A stretch of 64,000 bases of DNA from Stappia taiwanensis (GTDB taxonomy: Bacteria > Pseudomonadota > Alphaproteobacteria > Rhizobiales > Stappiaceae): the NCBI RefSeq assembly GCF_014635285.1, contig NZ_BMCR01000001.1, positions 372,001 to 436,000 of the forward strand, given 5' to 3'. The translations under genes and the position numbers were made by a program. The notes below the pieces were generated by a model. It saw only the letters and a list, made by a program, of their open reading frames with translations, was not told where the DNA came from and searched no databases. This document shows positions 50,934 through 60,799 of this stretch, one piece after another. Within the stretch, counting starts at the first letter, position 1; each line of letters begins with the position of its first letter.

Positions 50934-51332
50934 TCAGAGCCTCCAGACGTGAACCCAACATCCCGGTGTTTCCGGATCCGGCACGAAGCCGGTGAGGCGC
51001 GCCATGCGCTCGCCCGGCAGGTGGCCAGGCCGAACATGGGTCTTCACCCGCATGCCAGTCTGGGCGATGGCCTGAAGTCTTAACTGCGCAAGCCGGATCA
51101 GAGCGCGCATGCGGGTGCGCGCGTCCGGGCGAATGGCAAGACAGAATTCGGTCCAGCCATCGCCGAGCGGCCAGAGATAGGCCACGGCAAGCAATGCGTC
51201 GTCGTCGTGGATTGAAACACTGTCACCCCCGCGCCGCATGTGGAGCACGGCCTTGCGCATCCACCGGGTTGGGCTCGCGCAGGCCAGACAGTCGTCGCGG
51301 AGCGCCGGCGACCGTGTGGTCAGGGTCACCAT
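50934..51332 (-). CDS. GNAT-like phage protein (gp13-type), uncertain
   Basis: This 132-residue protein contains DSVSIHDDDALLAVAYLWPLGDGWTEFCLAIRPDARTRMRALIRLAQL, which looks like an acetyltransferase (GNAT) fold of the type found in T7 gp13-like proteins. It overlaps the terminase gene end by 7 nt. Whether it has enzymatic activity is unknown; in T7 the related protein assists particle assembly. Confidence 0.55.
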   Translation of the reverse strand: MVTLTTRSPALRDDCLACASPTRWMRKAVLHMRRGGDSVSIHDDDALLAVAYLWPLGDGWTEFCLAIRPDARTRMRALIRLAQLRLQAIAQTGMRVKTHVRPGHLPGERMARLTGFVPDPETPGCWVHVWRL

Positions 51333-53038
51333 AGTTTGATGTCCTGAAGGCGGTTGCGGTTGGCTTTGGCGCGCGCGGTGCGCTGATGGCGCATGCCGAC
51401 CACGTTGTCTGGCCGGCCGAGCTGCGAGGCGCCATCGATCACACCGAACCGGCCGCGATGGCCGAGGCAGATGTACTGCAAGGCGTCGTGTGGGTGCGAA
51501 TACTGGTTCTTCTGCACCGCCAGGACATCCGTTGCGCCGACGGACGCTTGCTTGGTCAGCTTGTAGTGCGCGGCGAAGCCGCCCACGATCATCTCGCACA
51601 CCGGGTCGACCTGCATGCGTTCGGTGTTTCCATCGATCGGTCGGCCGAGATACCAGCGCACCGCCTCTTGGCGGATCGCGGGTTCGTTCGACGGTGCCGG
51701 CAGGATGTTGATGTTGAGAGCTCGCGCCACCGTTTCCATGAACGCAAGTTCACCGGCTTGCTTGTCCGCTCCCCAAAACGCCGACGGATCGCCATATGCC
51801 TCGCTGATCGCGAAGCCGGAGAAGCGTGAAAGCAACACCTCCATGATCATTTCCGCAAAGCGGGAGGGGCCGGTTCCGGGCATCGCGCAGATCTCCGCGA
51901 GGATCCTCAACTGGCCGTTCGGCATGAACTGAACGATCACCGCGGCTGGCGATCCGCCGGCGTCAAGACCGATGCCGAGCGGGACGCCCTTTGCCGGTGT
52001 GATTGCCGCGTCTGCCGCGTGGCGGGCAAGCGCGAACTCCGGATAGACGGGCTTGCCGTCGAGCGCATAGCCGAACTCGCCGTGCACCATGCGCCGCACG
52101 ATGTGTTCTGGCTGGGTCGCCGCCTCCAGCTCGTAGCTGGATCGTGGCTTGCCGACGCGATTTTCCGCGTTGGGCGACAGGCCGGACGGCTGCCGGAACA
52201 GATTGAAACCGGCGATCTTTTCCTTGATGCAGAAGCGATAGACCCAGTTGTCGATGTCCGGTGGATTGAGGTCACCCCACACCATGCGCGGCAGGATGAT
52301 TTCATTCTCATCGTAGCTCAGCCCCATCAGATCGAACGACTTGCGGCCATCACGCGACACACGCTCAAGCTCGCTTGGCGCGATATCGCTCACCCTCGGG
52401 TAGCGGCCCGTGCGCTGGAACAGCAGACCAGGCACGCGCTCGTCGAGCATGTCGCACTCGTTGATCCAGCCGTAGGTGATCTCGTAGCCCTTGATGTATT
52501 GCTCCACATTCGCATCGCCGATGGCGCCGGTCTGCATCTCGTAGTCGATGACCACTTCGCCGATACCTGGTCGCCGGGCCCGCCATTTCAGGCGATGGCG
52601 CACCGGCCGGTCCTGCCCACCTTCATGGCTCACGGTCCAGGGGTGATTGATCGGGAAGGTCTCGTACCAGGACGCAAGCGCGGTGCGCGCGAAGTCGCGA
52701 TAGGTATCGCGGATACAGGCTGCCTTGACCCGCACCACGCCATCGCGGCAGACGGGCGCATATGCGGCCGCCAGCGCCGGCCCCTTGACGACGCTGACCA
52801 CGGTCTTGCCCGAGCCCGCTGGCCCCATGATCAGGTCGATCGGCCCTTTCGAGTGCAGAAACCGCTCACCAACCGGCCCCGGTGGTTTGTAGCGCTGAAC
52901 GTCGATTCCCAAGACCCTGACCCCGCTCCCGGCGCGCGCCCGCGCCCGCTCCCGGTGAACGAGAGTATTTTCGTGGGCCACCCCTTCAGTGCGGGGCAGG
53001 ACAGGCAAGCGGAACAGGTCGTGTGTGTGAGGCGGCAT
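51326..53038 (-). CDS. Terminase large subunit
   Basis: This DNA-packaging motor has a Walker A motif IMGPAGSGKT, a Walker B region (YGWINECDML) and a C-terminal RNase H-like nuclease domain whose first Asp lies in GIGLDAGGSPAAVIVQF. The family N-terminus (RYKPPGPVGERFLHS) begins about 55 codons before the ATPase core. Start choice is uncertain: 53038 (ATG) is given; a TTG at 52912 would fit homologues better; the frame extends to 53197 but that part looks non-coding (Arg/Pro/Gly-rich). Confidence 0.9.
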   Translation of the reverse strand: MPPHTHDLFRLPVLPRTEGVAHENTLVHRERARARAGSGVRVLGIDVQRYKPPGPVGERFLHSKGPIDLIMGPAGSGKTVVSVVKGPALAAAYAPVCRDGVVRVKAACIRDTYRDFARTALASWYETFPINHPWTVSHEGGQDRPVRHRLKWRARRPGIGEVVIDYEMQTGAIGDANVEQYIKGYEITYGWINECDMLDERVPGLLFQRTGRYPRVSDIAPSELERVSRDGRKSFDLMGLSYDENEIILPRMVWGDLNPPDIDNWVYRFCIKEKIAGFNLFRQPSGLSPNAENRVGKPRSSYELEAATQPEHIVRRMVHGEFGYALDGKPVYPEFALARHAADAAITPAKGVPLGIGLDAGGSPAAVIVQFMPNGQLRILAEICAMPGTGPSRFAEMIMEVLLSRFSGFAISEAYGDPSAFWGADKQAGELAFMETVARALNINILPAPSNEPAIRQEAVRWYLGRPIDGNTERMQVDPVCEMIVGGFAAHYKLTKQASVGATDVLAVQKNQYSHPHDALQYICLGHRGRFGVIDGASQLGRPDNVVGMRHQRTARAKANRNRLQDIKLW

Positions 53039-53288
53039 ACCCCGCCCAGGGGTGCCCGCGCCGGTTTTCGAAGCCGGCGGCCGGCCATCGGCCGCCGCGC
53101 CGAGGGGCACCCCCACAGATCGGCGATACGCCAACCGGCCGCGAGGGGTTGACGGCTCCAGGTCGAAACTGCCCAGCGTAGACCTACTGATTTTCAATCA
53201 CTTGGACTGTCGACATAATGTCAATTAAATCAATACCTTGGGTTGATCGTGAGACGGCGTGTCAGCCCGTCGCACATCGCCGCGAAAG

Positions 53289-53930
53289 CTAAGTGCTTGA
53301 TCCGTCATCGCTTTCCGAAATTTCGCCGGTCAGGCTGATAACCCCATCCGGCGGACGCTGCCCGCCGCTCTCGACCTGCTGGAACACCATCAGGCCAAGG
53401 CGCTCCTCGCGGTGCACGGTCTCGGTCGGTCGCTTGCTCTCGAAATAGGGCAGCAACTCAGCGTTTGCCTTGACGATCAGGTCCGCCGCCTCCTTCGGTT
53501 TGCATCCCAGTTCCACCGCGAGCGCGGCCGGGCTGGCGTTCGCCAGGTCTGCGAGGTTCTGGCCGGGGTGGCGGTAGCCTTGTTTCAGCAGGTAATCGCG
53601 AAAGAGCTGATTGCGCTTGTTTTTGGAGCCTTTCGGCCTCCCGCGCCCGCCAGCTCGCTCCAGAGTTTTCGCCACATGGCGGACCGGGCCGGCGAATAGG
53701 CAGGGTTCATCATCGAGCAAGGACGCCTGGTCGGCCTCGTCCTGCAGATCGATCAGCGCCGCCAAGTCATCCAGCGCGGCCTCGGCGGTCGCGGCCATGT
53801 CGCCGACCTTCGCGGCGCGCTCGGCGTCCGGCTCGACCGGCCGCGCCTGGTCGGCCGGATCCGCCGGTGTGTGTGCCCCCGCCAGCGTCTCCTTCGGGTC
53901 CTGGTCATCGCCCATCGGATTGATCCCCAT
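53289..53930 (-). CDS. Probable terminase small subunit / DUF5681-like DNA-binding protein
   Basis: This 213-residue protein has an acidic N-terminal half, then GGRGRPKGSKNKRNQLFRDYLLKQGYRHPGQNLADLA, a GRPKGSKN AT-hook-like motif seen in phage small terminases and DUF5681-type proteins. It is the first gene of the late operon, upstream of the large terminase. The start at 53930 is not well supported (53915 is possible). The CTAACC repeat array starts 32 bp upstream of this gene. Confidence 0.7.
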   Translation of the reverse strand: MGINPMGDDQDPKETLAGAHTPADPADQARPVEPDAERAAKVGDMAATAEAALDDLAALIDLQDEADQASLLDDEPCLFAGPVRHVAKTLERAGGRGRPKGSKNKRNQLFRDYLLKQGYRHPGQNLADLANASPAALAVELGCKPKEAADLIVKANAELLPYFESKRPTETVHREERLGLMVFQQVESGGQRPPDGVISLTGEISESDDGSST

Positions 53931-53961
53931 TTGTTTAATCCGCTGGCCACGGAACGGTGTT

Positions 53962-54176
53962 CCTAACCGCAACCTAACCGCGAAACCGTAATGAAATCAG
54001 GAATATATTTCTCTCGGTTAGAGGTTATGAGGTTAGGAAGGTCCCGCGTATCCGCACACGCGCGCGCGTGAAACTCTCCCTAACCGCGCCATCCGCCTAA
54101 CCATTCCGTCAACATCCTGATTTTGTTAGAAAAAGCCGGTTAGGTAGCGCCTAACCACGTCTAACCGACGCTAACC
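53962..54176. repeat. Array of CTAACC/GGTTAG hexamers in phage control region
   Basis: Ten exact copies in 214 bp: CTAACC at 53963, 53974, 54080, 54097, 54151, 54161 and 54171, and the complement GGTTAG at 54016, 54031 and 54138. Near copies are GGTTAT (54023) and TGTTAG (54124). Several are spaced 10-11 bp (53963/53974; 54151/54161/54171), consistent with protein binding on one DNA face. Many copies extend to CCTAACC(G). The region has no gene. It may be an origin, or the operator of the late operon; which is unknown. Confidence 0.9.
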
Positions 54177-54424
54177 CCCGCGCCCGCCGGCAGCGGAAAT
54201 CCAACCTCGCACACGCGCGCCCTCATCAAGTGCCCGCGCCGGCCTTGAGCTAGCCAAGTGCGAATGCCGCAGGCGCGCGAAAGCGCGGCGGAGGCGGGCA
54301 GATGAGGACCGGCGCGGGCTCCGTTTAGAGCCCAGCGGGGCGGGGGGGAATGGATATCAAGTGCAGCGACGGTTTTTAGGCTCGGAACAGGGGGGCGCGG
54401 GCGTCGTGTCGACTAAAAGCATAG
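54177..54424. other. Non-coding GC-rich stretch between repeat array and DUF932 promoter
   Basis: No convincing gene. It completes the roughly 590-nt gap between the small terminase and the DUF932 gene. It includes GC-rich inverted segments (for example around 54225-54320, CGCGCC/GGCGCG) and a G-run at 54340-54349. Confidence 0.5.
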
Positions 54425-54473
54425 CCAATGGTTATATTCTCTCTTGACGTAAAATGATACCATTGGTTATATT
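54425..54473 (+). promoter_or_regulatory. Promoter of the DUF932 cassette with direct repeats
   Basis: -35 TTGACG (54444-54449) and -10 TTATAT (54467-54472) with an ideal 17-nt spacer. The 10-mer TGGTTATATT occurs at 54429-54438 and again at 54464-54473, exactly overlapping the -10; each is preceded by CCAA or CCAT, forming CCAATGG/CCATTGG palindromes. The repeats are likely operator half-sites. Confidence 0.7.
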
Positions 54474-54485
54474 ATGACCGTCAGA

Positions 54486-54504
54486 AGCGCCATTGAGGCG
54501 CGCC
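54486..54504 (+). repeat. 19-bp leader repeat, copy 1
   Basis: AGCGCCATTGAGGCGCGCC just before the ribosome site of the DUF932 gene; identical copy at 55445-55463. Confidence 0.85.
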
Positions 54505-54521
54505 AACAAGGGAAAATGACA

Positions 54522-55388
54522 ATGTCGATTTACGCAAACACCGCTCGTTTCGATGGCGCTAAGGTTCTCGGTGAGGATGAGTTGCGCCGCCTGGCGCCGT
54601 CGGTCTTCGCCACATCCGCCCACGAAAGCCGTTCCGACCGGTTCCAACCGATCCCGACAATCGAGATCCTGCGCGGCCTGATGGCCGAAGGGTTTATGCC
54701 GGTCGGCGCGAAACAGTCTCGCAGCCGCGACGCAAGCAAGGTTCACTTCACAAAGCACATGCTGCGGCTGCGTCGCATCGACGAGGATAGTAGTCTTCGT
54801 GTTGGCGATACGGTCTGCGAGATCCTGTTGAAGAACGCGAACGACGGCTCCAGCGCCTACGACCTGATGGCCGGTCTGTTCCGCATCCGCTGCCTCAACT
54901 CGCTGGTCGCGCAAACGGGCACAATCGACAGCGTGAAGGTTCGCCATTCCGGCGACGTGCAAGGGAAGGTGATCGAGGGCACCTATCGCGTCATGGAAGA
55001 GGCGCAAAAGGCGCTTGTCGCGCCGGCGGAATGGTCCGGCCTGGCGCTATCTCGTGACGAGCGCATGGCCTTCGCCGAAGCCGCTCATGTGCTCCGCTTC
55101 GGCGACGCGGAAGGCAACGTCGACACGCCGATTACGCCTGACCAGCTCTTGCAACCCCGCCGCCGCGATGATCGCGCGGCCGACCTCTGGACCACGTTCA
55201 ACGTCGCGCAGGAAAACGTCATTCGCGGCGGGCTGCGCGGTGTCACCCGCAATGCCAACGGCCGGCGCCGGCGCGTCTCGACCCGCGCTGTGAACGGAAT
55301 CGACCAGGACGTGAAGCTGAACAAGGCCCTTTGGATCCTCTCGCAGCGCATGGCGGAGATGAAAGGCGTGGACAGCCTGGCGGCCTGA
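54522..55388 (+). CDS. DUF932-family phage/plasmid protein
   Basis: This 288-residue protein is related to the DUF932 family: KSRSRDASKVHFTKHMLRLRR (here QSRSRDASKVHFTKHMLRL), GSSAYDLMAGLFRIRCLNSLVA and HSGDVQGKVIEGTYRVMEEAQKA are the characteristic segments. The family is common on phages and plasmids, with unknown biochemical role. The start at 54522 follows AAGGGA at good spacing; the upstream in-frame ATG at 54474 lies inside the promoter. It begins a rightward three-gene cassette. Confidence 0.88.
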   Translation: MSIYANTARFDGAKVLGEDELRRLAPSVFATSAHESRSDRFQPIPTIEILRGLMAEGFMPVGAKQSRSRDASKVHFTKHMLRLRRIDEDSSLRVGDTVCEILLKNANDGSSAYDLMAGLFRIRCLNSLVAQTGTIDSVKVRHSGDVQGKVIEGTYRVMEEAQKALVAPAEWSGLALSRDERMAFAEAAHVLRFGDAEGNVDTPITPDQLLQPRRRDDRAADLWTTFNVAQENVIRGGLRGVTRNANGRRRRVSTRAVNGIDQDVKLNKALWILSQRMAEMKGVDSLAA

Positions 55389-56983: not shown

Positions 56984-58834
56984 CTAATCCTCCGCCTTCG
57001 GCATCGCGGCATCATAGGCGCCGAGATCCACCAGCAGGCAGTGTTTCGCCGTCCGGTTGATCTTGATCGTGTGATAGCGCTGTTCAAGGCCGCGCAACAC
57101 GATGTGTTCCGGCGCCTGTTTCAGGGCCAACCACCAGCCCCCTTCAAAAAAGTCCGTCTCCTGGAAGATCTTGAACAGCGCCGGGTGTTTCGCCGGCACC
57201 GCCAAGAACGGACCGATGCCGATTTCACCGGCCTTGCGCAGGCCGAGGCCGGCAAGCGCCAGCCGCTCGCGCGCATATTGCAGCTCCAGCGATGCACCGC
57301 GCTCATATTCCAGCAGCACGCCGCCGACCGTCAGCCGGTCGCCGCTGCGATGCGCGTCGATCGTGGCCGCCAACAGGTGCTCAAGGCACTCCTGCCATTT
57401 TTCCGTTTGCTCCGCGCGTTCGGCCTCGGTGGCGGCGCGGATGATTTCCGCCAGCCGCTCCTGATCGGAGATTTCCAGCCCGAGCGCTTCCAGCGCCTCA
57501 GGGCCGACCAGCAATTCGGCGGCCGCGAGCAACGTGCCGTAGGTATCCATCGCGCGCGCGTCGAAACCGGCTTTGTGCAGCGTTTGCTTCCAGTCGGGCA
57601 GGAGGCGCGTGCGAAATTCCTGCCAGCCGTCCATGATCTGCCGCAGGATCATGCGGCCGTCCGTGTCCCGCACGACAGGTTCGCGGCCGTGGGCCTTGTC
57701 GAGGCGCTTGAGGTTGAGGGTTGCCATCCGCGTCTTGTCCTGGACGCCCATCGGCGGCGGCAAAATCGCAGAGAACATAAAGCTGGATCGCGCCTGGAAC
57801 GTGGTGCCCTCGTGATTGGCGCCGCCGCGCGCCATCTTGCCGCCGCTCGATGCCAGACGCGCCAGCTCGATAATGCTGGTCGCCTTGGAGCTGCCGCGCT
57901 TCGCCTCCAGTTCATCGACCGTCACGGGCAGGCTGTCCTGCTTGACGTGCTGGTAGATGCCGGCGGCGGTCGTGTCGACCAGGGCGATCAGGCTATCGCC
58001 CAGGATCGCCTGCGTCAGGCTGTGCAGTGTCGACTTGCCGACACCGGCGCCGCCGGTGGTGAAGACGATCGGCCGCCAGTCGAGCGCCCCCCCCATGAAC
58101 GCGCAGGCAATCCAACCCAGAAACAGCACCGGATCCAGATATGGACGGTCCCAGTTCCATGTACGCAGATCCTCAAGGATCGAGAGGGCAGGGCTCTCCT
58201 CGCGGGCGATCGCGGTTTCCCACGGCCGGTCGATGTCGGGCGATCGCAGATAGAGATATCCGTCATGTTCGGCCGGGCGGGCGGTGATAAGCTTGCCCCT
58301 GTCATCGACCGACCACAGGAATTCGCCTGAGTTCCAGATGAATGCGCCGGAATCAACCATCCAGCCACCGCGCCCGCGCACGCGCTTTTCCGGATCGAAC
58401 AGCCCGCGCCGCTTGCCCTCCGACACCAGGCAGATCATCGCCTTGTCACGCTCGACGCGATCGATCTTGTAGATCGGCTCACCATCTTCATTGGTGCCGA
58501 CCTTCTTCATCGCCGGCCACCCCCAGTAGAGGTAGTTGATCTTCGGCGCGAACAGACTGGTCAGGATGTGCATATCCCAGCGCTCCACCGCGTGGAGCTG
58601 ACCGGTGGCTGACCGGCAATAGGTCACCGTGCCATTGTGACCCAAGACTTCTACCGGGCAGTTTGGCGGCATGCGGTCCCAGGGCGCGCCGATCCACTTT
58701 CCGGGGAGGATACCATCGCGCGCAAGGTTCGGGTCCGGATCCTCGATATCCGCCCGTTCCTCCAGACGGCGTTGCGCCTCCAGCCAATGCGCGCGGGTTG
58801 CCTGTGTCCCGACCTGTGTCCTGCGCTTCGCCAT
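56984..58834 (-). CDS. Phage primase/helicase (P-loop ATPase)
   Basis: This 616-residue protein has a P-loop GGAGVGKS at residues 261-268, downstream acidic motif SLPVTVDELEAKRG, and ARSSFMFSAILPPPMG (sensor-like), as in DUF927/virulence-E-type phage DNA helicases. It should unwind DNA during phage replication with the Toprim protein encoded upstream. The start at 58834 is chosen because the longer frame (to 58876) would run through the terminator hairpin and lacks a ribosome site. It is last in the early operon. Confidence 0.82.
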   Translation of the reverse strand: MAKRRTQVGTQATRAHWLEAQRRLEERADIEDPDPNLARDGILPGKWIGAPWDRMPPNCPVEVLGHNGTVTYCRSATGQLHAVERWDMHILTSLFAPKINYLYWGWPAMKKVGTNEDGEPIYKIDRVERDKAMICLVSEGKRRGLFDPEKRVRGRGGWMVDSGAFIWNSGEFLWSVDDRGKLITARPAEHDGYLYLRSPDIDRPWETAIAREESPALSILEDLRTWNWDRPYLDPVLFLGWIACAFMGGALDWRPIVFTTGGAGVGKSTLHSLTQAILGDSLIALVDTTAAGIYQHVKQDSLPVTVDELEAKRGSSKATSIIELARLASSGGKMARGGANHEGTTFQARSSFMFSAILPPPMGVQDKTRMATLNLKRLDKAHGREPVVRDTDGRMILRQIMDGWQEFRTRLLPDWKQTLHKAGFDARAMDTYGTLLAAAELLVGPEALEALGLEISDQERLAEIIRAATEAERAEQTEKWQECLEHLLAATIDAHRSGDRLTVGGVLLEYERGASLELQYARERLALAGLGLRKAGEIGIGPFLAVPAKHPALFKIFQETDFFEGGWWLALKQAPEHIVLRGLEQRYHTIKINRTAKHCLLVDLGAYDAAMPKAED

Positions 58835-58853
58835 GTTCAGCCATTCCCATTCG

Positions 58854-58894
58854 AAAAAAAAGCCGCCAGCGATCATGCAAGGATCGCAGGCGGC
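58854..58894 (-). terminator. Strong intrinsic terminator just before the helicase gene
   Basis: A 13-bp stem (GCCGCC-A-GCGATC at 58862-58874 with GATCGC-A-GGCGGC at 58882-58894, one mismatch) is followed on the minus strand by eight T (complement of 58854-58861). It ends 20 nt before the helicase ATG and 21 nt after the preceding gene, leaving no room for a normal promoter. Confidence 0.88.
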
Positions 58895-59400: not shown

Positions 59401-59678
59401 GCGGCGGTCTCCGTGATCCCAACGACGTTCCAGTCGTCGGCCATGATGTCGGTCTGTGAGGCGAGCCAGGGAACAATGCTCCCGTCCGCCGCGCGCATGT
59501 CGATGTGCGGCCGGTAGGTGACTTCCGTCCCCTCTCCGAGGATGGAGGGCAGCGGCTCCCGGCTCACCCGGAAGTTGGAGCCGGCGACGAGGAACACGAA
59601 CATTCCCTTGCCGTTCCAGCCGGCCCGCGCGAGCCGCTTTCCTTCCTTGATCGCGTTCAACGCATCGCTGAAGTTCAT
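59397..59678 (-). CDS. DUF2829 family, Tad2-like anti-Thoeris protein
   Basis: This 93-residue protein matches the DUF2829 pattern along its whole length. It has MNFSDALNAIKEGKRLARAGWNGKGMFVFLV at the start, RPHIDMRAADGSIVPWLASQTDIMADDW in the second half, and the hallmark W-N-G-K-G-M and DxxADDW ends. Characterised DUF2829 proteins (Tad2) bind and sequester cyclic ADP-ribose-type signals of the Thoeris immune system, and some also bind CBASS cyclic nucleotides. It overlaps both neighbours by 4 nt in the early operon, so it would be made at once after infection or induction. Confidence 0.88.
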   Translation of the reverse strand: MNFSDALNAIKEGKRLARAGWNGKGMFVFLVAGSNFRVSREPLPSILGEGTEVTYRPHIDMRAADGSIVPWLASQTDIMADDWNVVGITETAA

Positions 59679-60799
59679 TCCACATCTCCTTTGCCTAGGT
59701 CGTTAAAATCGCTGCCGGCGTGCGGCCGCATCAGCTCCACCGGCTTGCCGCTCGCCTCAAGCTGTGCAAGCGCACGGTCGAGCTGGCGCTGTGCTTGCGG
59801 CTTGTCCCAATCGTTCTCGCCGGCCACGATCACCGCCGAAATGAAATCGAAATTCACTGGCACATTGCCAATCCCGGTGATCGAGCCACCGGCGGCAACC
59901 CGCGCCTCGGGAATGTCCATCGCGATGCGCTCGCCGGTCTCGATGCCCTCAGACAGCACCAGCGGATGCGGCTGGGTGGCCTGCCATGGCGGGACACCTT
60001 CCGGACCGTGGCTGATCCAGACGGCCGCGCCTTTGGTCGGCGCTTTCATCAGCCGCGGGCTGTTCTTTGGCCCCAGCACAGCCTTTTCCGGCTTCACAGG
60101 GTCAAGAAAGGTCACATGACATGCACGGATCTGGCCGAGCGGCGAGCGCATGGCGGCGAGAATGCCCGGCAGCAAGGGCCCGGGCCGCGTCTTGATCGCA
60201 CGGCCGCGCTCATCGCGGCTCCACTCGGCAAGCGTCCAGTACTCCACCTGTGCCGCGTAGCGCAGCGATGTGCGGTCACGATTGCGAATCTTGTCCAGGT
60301 CGATCGCGCGCGCGCGAAGATAGGCGCGGGCATGAGCCTCGGCCGCAGATCCGGCGCCGTCCATCATTGCCTGATCGAACAGCTTTTCCGCCTGCCGTCT
60401 TTCCCATTCCGCCCGGCGGCGGGCCTTCTCATCGTCTTCGGCCGCGCGGACACGCGCCGCCTCCGCGAAGCTTCGGCGCTGGTCGGCGGTCATCTGGGCA
60501 AAACCGAGGAAATCGCGCGACCATTGCAGCGCCCCGCGAAAGTCGGTCTGATGCAGGTATTGCACGAGCCCGACGACATCGCCCTTGTCTCCCGAACGCC
60601 AGTCTTTCCACGCCCCTTTGTCTCCGGTCAGGGCAACCTTGAGCTCCGGGGTCTTGCGGTGGTCGGCCGTGATCGGATTGTTCGACACCCACAGCCGGCC
60701 GATGCGCCGGCCATGGGGCAACAGGCGCCGGCACAGATCCTCGATCCGATCCTTCAGGCCCTGCTTGACGGCCTCCACTTCGCGGCGACGGTCGGACAT
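59675..60799 (-). CDS. Toprim-domain primase-like protein
   Basis: This 374-residue protein has an N-terminal region without a clear zinc finger (WVSNNPITADHRKTPELKVALTGDKGAWKDWRSGDKGDVVGLVQYL). A charged helical linker follows, then a C-terminal Toprim domain with LVLSEGIETG (catalytic Glu) and VIVAGENDWD (acidic pair) and the ending SDFNDL. Such proteins prime phage DNA replication with a separate helicase. It starts 2 nt after the upstream stop and overlaps the Tad2-like gene by 4 nt. Confidence 0.86.
   Translation of the reverse strand: MSDRRREVEAVKQGLKDRIEDLCRRLLPHGRRIGRLWVSNNPITADHRKTPELKVALTGDKGAWKDWRSGDKGDVVGLVQYLHQTDFRGALQWSRDFLGFAQMTADQRRSFAEAARVRAAEDDEKARRRAEWERRQAEKLFDQAMMDGAGSAAEAHARAYLRARAIDLDKIRNRDRTSLRYAAQVEYWTLAEWSRDERGRAIKTRPGPLLPGILAAMRSPLGQIRACHVTFLDPVKPEKAVLGPKNSPRLMKAPTKGAAVWISHGPEGVPPWQATQPHPLVLSEGIETGERIAMDIPEARVAAGGSITGIGNVPVNFDFISAVIVAGENDWDKPQAQRQLDRALAQLEASGKPVELMRPHAGSDFNDLGKGDVE

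Follow-up and report, generated by a model that had tools for sequence, protein, structure and literature searches.

A mirror-image hexamer array in a Stappia taiwanensis phage element: a probable replication origin read by a D5/SF3-like helicase

Iterons of SaPI/PICI elements differ from element to element, and short repeats also serve the satellite phage P4, whose alpha protein is a primase-helicase initiator that binds them, with ori and crr as two separate sites. In the pac site of phage P1, hexanucleotide groups lie on either side of a centre, together with IHF, and the site is bound and cleaved by the terminase. The rep-ori of SaPI/PICI elements, as described in two accounts, combines a self-loading helicase of the D5/SF3 or DUF927 type with two sets of iterons around a central region, and the origin usually adjoins the helicase gene (PMC7581432, PMC6092414). 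The former account also reports that SaPI Rep reads its iterons with its C-terminal domain, and that SV40 large T and papillomavirus E1 are helicases that bind their own origins (PMC7581432).

The window, meaning the whole stretch of 64,000 nucleotides (64 kb) of Stappia taiwanensis analysed here, contains an array of CTAACC/GGTTAG hexamers at 53963–54176 which, judged by sequence comparison, is most probably a phage replication origin read by the helicase encoded at 56984–58876. The likeness to the SaPI/PICI rep-ori extends to the D5/SF3-like fold of the helicase (matches to 7ola and 5dgk), to two sets of short iterons around a central region, and possibly to a C-terminal mode of recognition, which is suggested here by statistics. 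The SaPI/PICI central region, however, is AT-rich, whereas the centre described here is usually an alternating purine-pyrimidine tract and is not; and the SaPI/PICI origin lies directly downstream of rep, whereas that of the window stands 2.8 kb from the helicase gene, behind a rightward cassette, although phi1422 and two Arsenophonus plasmids are among the relatives in which it directly follows the helicase gene, as in SaPI/PICI. Unlike in SaPI/PICI, each half is made up of two oppositely oriented clusters, one inner and one outer, separated by an AT-rich spacer, and the element is found in complete phages and small plasmids. A PICI is, moreover, a satellite without capsid genes of its own, whereas the element in the window encodes TerL, a virion structural protein, and a protein matching Head-tail_con. 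The best reading by analogy is that the array element would function like a SaPI/PICI rep-ori replicon and yet is not a PICI: its clusters in mirror image, its spacers rich in AT, and its alternating centre set it apart, as does its occurrence in complete phages.

The system of P4 resembles it in having a primase-helicase initiator and short repeats, binding being a proposal in the present case, but has two separate sites instead of one compact mirror-symmetric site. P1 pac is similar in its hexanucleotide groups flanking a centre and in IHF; it is terminase-bound, whereas the hexamers described here did not follow the terminase in one clear exchange. SV40 large T and papillomavirus E1 use an N-terminal DNA-binding domain, in contrast to the C-terminal one proposed here. 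No published description of this element in phages was found among the titles and abstract openings of the top matches listed, which is weak evidence of absence.

The array and its surroundings in the window

Ten exact copies of the hexamer, counted on both strands, lie in 53963–54176 as the sequence-only reading had reported, and two others are scattered over the remaining ~63.8 kb, giving 12 in the window. The density is indeed far beyond chance, and the expectation of 0.1 copy given in that reading is lowered to about 0.02 per 214 bp, since dinucleotide shuffles of the window gave a mean of 7.03 copies per 64 kb. The 10–11 bp period that it described was borne out at 53963/53974 and 54151/54161/54171, and two near copies identified by the motif model, GGTTAT (54023–54028) and TGTTAG (54124–54129), bring the total to 12 sites. 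Its statement that the array has no gene holds if the leftward gene begins at the ATG at 53930, a longer TTG start at 53972 being formally possible.

Absent from that reading was the mirror-image arrangement of the sites around 54053–54070. Along the plus strand, the outer cluster beside the small-terminase gene (53963–53979) consists of two plus-strand CTAACC sites 11 bp apart, a position kept in relatives, and is followed by an AT-rich spacer (53980–54015) containing the IHF-like AATCAGGAATATA, which is near to the IHF consensus without matching it. Three minus-strand sites, GGTTAG, the near copy GGTTAT, and GGTTAG in steps of 7 and 8 bp, form the inner cluster (54016–54036) before a 43-bp centre (54037–54079), where the stretch 54053–54070 (CGCACACGCGCGCGCGTG) is the sole alternating purine-pyrimidine run of at least 17 in the 64-kb window. 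The mirror half then opens with the second inner cluster (54080–54102, plus strand), in which CTAACC occurs at 54080 and 54097 and the middle site is degenerate in the window and present in some relatives. The second AT-rich spacer (54103–54137) holds the near copy at 54124–54129 and carries on its minus strand AATCAGGATGTTG, which fits the IHF consensus WATCARNNNNTTR. A lone GGTTAG site in the opposite orientation (54138–54143, minus strand) precedes the outer mirror cluster (54151–54176, plus strand) of three CTAACC in 10-bp steps. The intergenic DNA of the array is single-copy in its own genome, the sole other match being to 25 bases of the adjoining GC-rich stretch, and a search of 53000–55000 against Rfam gave two matches, both under the gathering score.

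Leftward of the array lie the genes of a TerS-like protein (53289–53930, minus strand), which adjoins it and was assigned by position and relatives, of the large terminase TerL (51326–52921, minus strand), and of a protein matching Head-tail_con. The TerS-like protein contains an AT-hook-like GRGRPKGSKNK, and its structure model is poor (pLDDT 70.8); across the family, the AT-hook-like motif reads GRGRPKGSxNK and a profile match to HMG-I/Y was obtained (E 0.004). To the right, three genes run rightward, namely that of DUF932 at 54474 and those of a methyltransferase-like and a small regulator-like protein; they are followed by the leftward genes of the proposed initiator, the D5/SF3-like helicase (56984–58876, minus strand; probable start 58834), and, upstream of it, of a Toprim/DUF7146 primase (59675–60799, minus strand), a probable replication partner of the helicase.

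Several features of the rightward flank are recorded in their own right. Many viral contigs, as well as jumbo phages of Erwinia, Serratia, Cronobacter, and Xanthomonas, encode relatives of the DUF932 protein (54474–55388). A GC-rich stem-loop at 54226–54327, between the array and the DUF932 gene, is bounded by the arms GCCCGCGCCGG/CCGGCGCGGGC and encloses a hairpin whose loop is GAAA. Its alignment in five other genomes (one cut short) showed changes on both sides in four of 23 predicted pairs, such as C-G to U-A in G056, with an unfavourable overall covariation term; it has no Rfam match, and from its sequence may possibly be a small RNA or a terminator-like element. Two near-identical copies of CCAATGGTTATATT, at 54425–54438 and 54460–54473, flank a TTGAC-type hexamer before the DUF932 gene when inspected by eye and look like operators of the DUF932 cassette.

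The AlphaFold model of the helicase is of high confidence (pLDDT 92.3, pTM 0.88), and its Foldseek matches (50 listed) include D5/SF3-type proteins, namely ASFV PrimPol, the C-terminal region of NrS-1, and poxvirus D5/E5. The SaPI5 primase-helicase (7ola) was matched with a modest query TM-score of 0.27 and SCCmec Cch (5dgk) with 0.38, the highest among the 50 matches listed. Pfam DUF927 was detected weakly in three of 55 members of the helicase family and was not found in the protein of the window. The last ~110 residues are modelled as helices and strands which, on a reading of the secondary structure, could form a winged helix.

The same layout with other hexamers

TerS homologues were found in six of 87 family genomes, the window's own included, and in two viral contigs, all of which have the array; seven close relatives, some near-identical to one another, keep the sites and their spacing while the intervening bases vary. 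A search of relatives for the array, which the sequence-only reading had proposed as a check, revealed that the layout recurs, often with a differently spelled repeat, and no relative examined possessed the same genes with the array missing.

Alignment searches with TerL and the helicase (the best 80 of 511 helicase relatives being entered), combined with earlier loci, yielded at least 184 regions, at least 156 of them unique in differing within the 300 bases that were compared on the upstream side of the terminase match; the surveyed loci are mutually related and not independent. The repeat is GGTAACC/GGTTACC in L084 and L085 (TerL 57% and 47% identical), AGAACC in L087, and GGTAACG in L091, and no array was seen in the phage records L088, L089, L090, and L266 matched by TerL. 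A motif was fitted in 103 regions (log10 p ≤ −8.4), and a centre was found in 99 of them, the exceptions being L133, L146, L188, and L197, the last of which has no array. Across the 99 arrays the best hexamer takes 48 different forms, of which some represent the same motif read with an offset, and the median number of sites is 12. Inner sites adjoining the centre follow each other in steps of 8 or 9 bp in 170 of the 192 cases counted, other same-orientation steps show a further peak at 11–12 bp, and the order of orientations also recurs; control segments 2 kb downstream gave hexamer clusters in 0 of 90. The end of the array is within about 300 bp of the TerS match in most unique array regions. 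In the AGAACC group (L087, L211, L212, L225, and L259) it follows shortly after the helicase gene and ~650 bp separate it from the downstream TerS, unlike in most relatives.

An alternating run of at least 12 is present in 91 of the 99 centres, compared with 1.3% of random windows from the same loci and 1.1% of shuffled centres, and one of at least 16 in 76, compared with 0.36% and 0.07%, respectively; among the eight centres with a run below 12, some (e.g., L105 and L122) are probably spacers picked by the script. The AT fraction of the 99 centres is 0.394 versus 0.359 in the loci, with about equal nearest-neighbour stability, and is 0.33 in the centre of the window and 0.589 in the 146 spacers counted. 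In the AT-rich phages Acjo_20 and S-H1, TATATA-like stretches occur inside the centre, that of Acjo_20 being AT-rich. Matches to the IHF consensus number 26 within the arrays (26.7 kb in total) and are spread over 25 of 99 loci; their density of 0.97 per kb exceeds the 0.086 of the loci as a whole, a difference for which the AT-rich spacers may partly account.

The array accompanies the helicase closely. A helicase match of at least 100 bits is present in 99 of the 156 unique regions, and all 99 have the array, 98 by rule and L154 by eye, in which it is located between a 70-bit TerS match and TerL. In the 48 regions with TerL only, it was found in none within the scanned distance of up to 1.9 kb upstream of TerL, at least 1 kb of upstream sequence being available in 40 and the full 1.9 kb in 27. 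A scan of these TerL-only loci over their whole length detected hexamer clusters (log10 p ≤ −10) in seven of the 48, with no helicase match, so the link to the helicase is strong, if perhaps not exclusive. In L251, on a 5-kb contig that stops about 200 bp farther on, TGGACA is laid out in the present mirror arrangement, so that a helicase could be encoded past the contig end; L218, L234, L237, and L255 have in common a cluster of ATCACA, arranged differently and situated ~2.5–2.8 kb upstream of the gene for a distant TerL, which might be a related element that uses a different initiator; the cluster of L209 is a tandem repeat, and that of L216 is ambiguous in kind. Nine further regions have a TerS-like match without a helicase of at least 100 bits. 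Four of them carry an array, namely L098, L185, and L189, which are cut by contig ends, and L195, whose helicase is elsewhere in the record; the five without one are L196, L199, and L205 (records of 30–34 kb with no helicase match) and L183 and L210, which are cut or short. Left out of these counts were three helicase loci with no TerS or TerL in view, of which L150 and L151 have no cluster and L175 an uncertain one at the locus edge.

The position of the array relative to the terminase genes is variable. The gene order in L194 is array, TerS, primase, helicase, TerL. In Acjo_20, the array stands directly upstream of the helicase, with TerS ~4 kb away when counted around the record end, and in phi1422 it comes directly after the helicase, the annotated TerL being 7.5 kb distant; in both, the gene beside the array is a single long primase-helicase-like gene. 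The array also follows the helicase in MinM1, and clusters lie 1.6 and 4.6 kb beyond the helicase-like gene in MQ-4 and ZRG1. The 11 records of distant phages that carry a helicase-like gene comprise five with a cluster (log10 p ≤ −9.9), two with a weak one (L263 and L271), and four with none (L262, L270, L272, and L274).

In five of the 14 plasmid records found, the layout occurs beside the helicase in L277 (NZ_CP123558.1) and L281 (NZ_CP123519.1) and partially in L278, and L279 and L280 have no array. L277 and L281 are small linear plasmids of Arsenophonus nasoniae (7.9–8.2 kb) in which the layout, with the repeats ATTACAA and GGTAACA, lies just after the helicase gene. Their annotated genes number five and seven, many of them hypothetical, according to a PLSDB table that is possibly incomplete; one plasmid has an annotated protelomerase and the other an annotated small terminase, annotated capsid genes are absent from both, and no other replication protein is annotated in either besides the one protelomerase. 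As judged from these sequences, the two plasmids support the view that helicase and array may together constitute a replicon. No long-range change in GC skew was seen across the array: the right-minus-left difference is −0.001 and is above zero in 43 of 97, the only change being a local swing within 500 bp.

Candidate readers of the hexamers

A natural exchange is provided by L093 (Aureimonas ureilytica NS365) and L167, in which an upstream open reading frame occupying the primase position is 96% identical, TerS 92%, TerL 94%, and the helicase 56–58%. The hexamers are unrelated (GGTAACG versus AATTAGA), with the clusters at matching distances from TerS; in terms of DNA, the two loci are 91% identical from near TerS onward, and the similarity ends after the helicase, save for 95 bases at 80%, and returns near TerS. 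Since TerS, TerL, and the upstream protein are 92–96% identical and the hexamers differ, these proteins are unlikely to set the hexamer, on the evidence of this one pair. The exchange extends to the small gene immediately before the helicase, whose products are 51% identical.

The comparison of motifs with proteins covered 93 loci, six of the 99 centre-bearing ones being dropped for want of one of the three proteins. At identities of 0.75–0.95, a motif distance above 0.40 was observed in 0 of 22 helicase pairs, one of 10 TerS pairs (L093/L167), and 16% of 44 TerL pairs; at 0.60–0.75, the figures were 12% of 90, 19% of 52, and 53% of 183, and L163 and L174 have clearly different motifs with helicases that are 71% identical. 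The partial correlation with motif distance was −0.378 for helicase residues 390–616 (0 of 1000 permutations) and −0.187 for residues 1–390 (five of 1000), and residues ~390–616 are proposed as the hexamer reader on the strength of these correlations. Mantel tests on whole proteins were weak and failed to set the helicase apart from the other two (simple: TerS 0.338, helicase 0.437, TerL 0.390; partial: TerS 0.129, helicase 0.112, TerL 0.079).

The sequence-only reading had offered a DnaA-like protein or the HTH protein as the recogniser. The former finds no backing, given that no such family was recognised among the 21 open reading frames of the window that were scanned, a set that excludes most late genes; the latter is likewise unsupported, given that the point at which DUF932 begins in the HTH/DUF932 cassette can be seen next to the array in the window, L003, G077, and G080 but was not seen in the stretch read beyond the array of G078/L056, G060, and G056. 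Among 52 loci of DUF932 relatives, a scan limited to CTAACC found a dense cluster in L003 only. The helicase is the better candidate, and the TerS-like protein is judged not to be the recogniser of the array.

Competing readings were considered for the site as well as for its reader. An origin read by another replication protein, such as the product of the small gene upstream of the helicase, with the helicase then recruited, would accommodate the exchange of that gene in L093/L167; it is nonetheless unlikely, for the motif is tracked best by the C-terminal part of the helicase, and in phi1422 and Acjo_20 the array is adjoined by the single long primase-helicase-like gene. The related SaPI Rep is moreover reported to read its own iterons (PMC7581432). 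Packaging initiation, in which the TerS-like protein would bind hexamers flanking a cleavage centre in the manner of P1 pac, was once the leading idea: the array of the window family lies directly upstream of TerS, that of most unique array regions ends within about 300 bp of the TerS match, TerS carries the AT-hook-like motif, L194 places the array upstream of TerS with primase and helicase further down, and the four TerL-only loci with ATCACA clusters have no helicase match. It was dropped on the evidence of Acjo_20 and phi1422, in which the array neighbours the helicase gene at a distance from the terminase genes, and of the L093/L167 exchange, and is now considered very unlikely; L277, moreover, has no annotated terminase, the annotated TerS of L281 is more than 3 kb from the array, and the TerS-like loci L196, L199, and L205, with no helicase match, lack the array.

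Of the two functions that the sequence-only reading had suggested, an iteron-like origin or a multi-site operator for late control, the comparison favours the origin. The operator, at which a phage regulator on the hexamers would switch the terminase operon, would suit a site between early and late genes, and a conserved TATATT-like stretch in one spacer, noted by eye, could be its promoter. This reading is unsupported: the element also occurs just before the helicase in Acjo_20, after the helicase and ahead of unrelated genes in phi1422, and on small plasmids in which capsid genes are not annotated. A non-exhaustive search, moreover, found no regulator accompanying all arrays, and the DUF932 start is not visible beside several of them, as described above; control of late genes is considered most improbable. 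An attP site was set aside by reasoning alone, as the element lies whole inside the integrated element.

Proposed mechanism and wider meaning

In the favoured reading of the array as an origin, the C-terminal part of the helicase (56984–58876) would read the hexamers, and two sets of helicase would assemble on the two mirror-image halves, aided by bending at the AT-rich spacers with their IHF-like sites. The duplex may then open at the spacers or at a supercoil-sensitive centre, after which the helicase rings would travel outward and the phage primase (59675–60799) would prime synthesis.

A wider proposal is put forward tentatively, as possible rather than probable: that the array represents a widespread class of phage and plasmid origins in which the geometry is fixed and the hexamer code drifts or is swapped together with the helicase, while a Z-DNA-prone alternating centre, conserved in its alternation rather than in its sequence, might sense supercoils between the two half-origins as the spacers open. 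The 48 best hexamers of the 99 arrays, each array paired with its helicase, form a natural data set on how initiators change their DNA code, and the conserved alternation of the centre, a puzzling structural feature, raises the question of whether supercoils are sensed or stored there as the origin opens.
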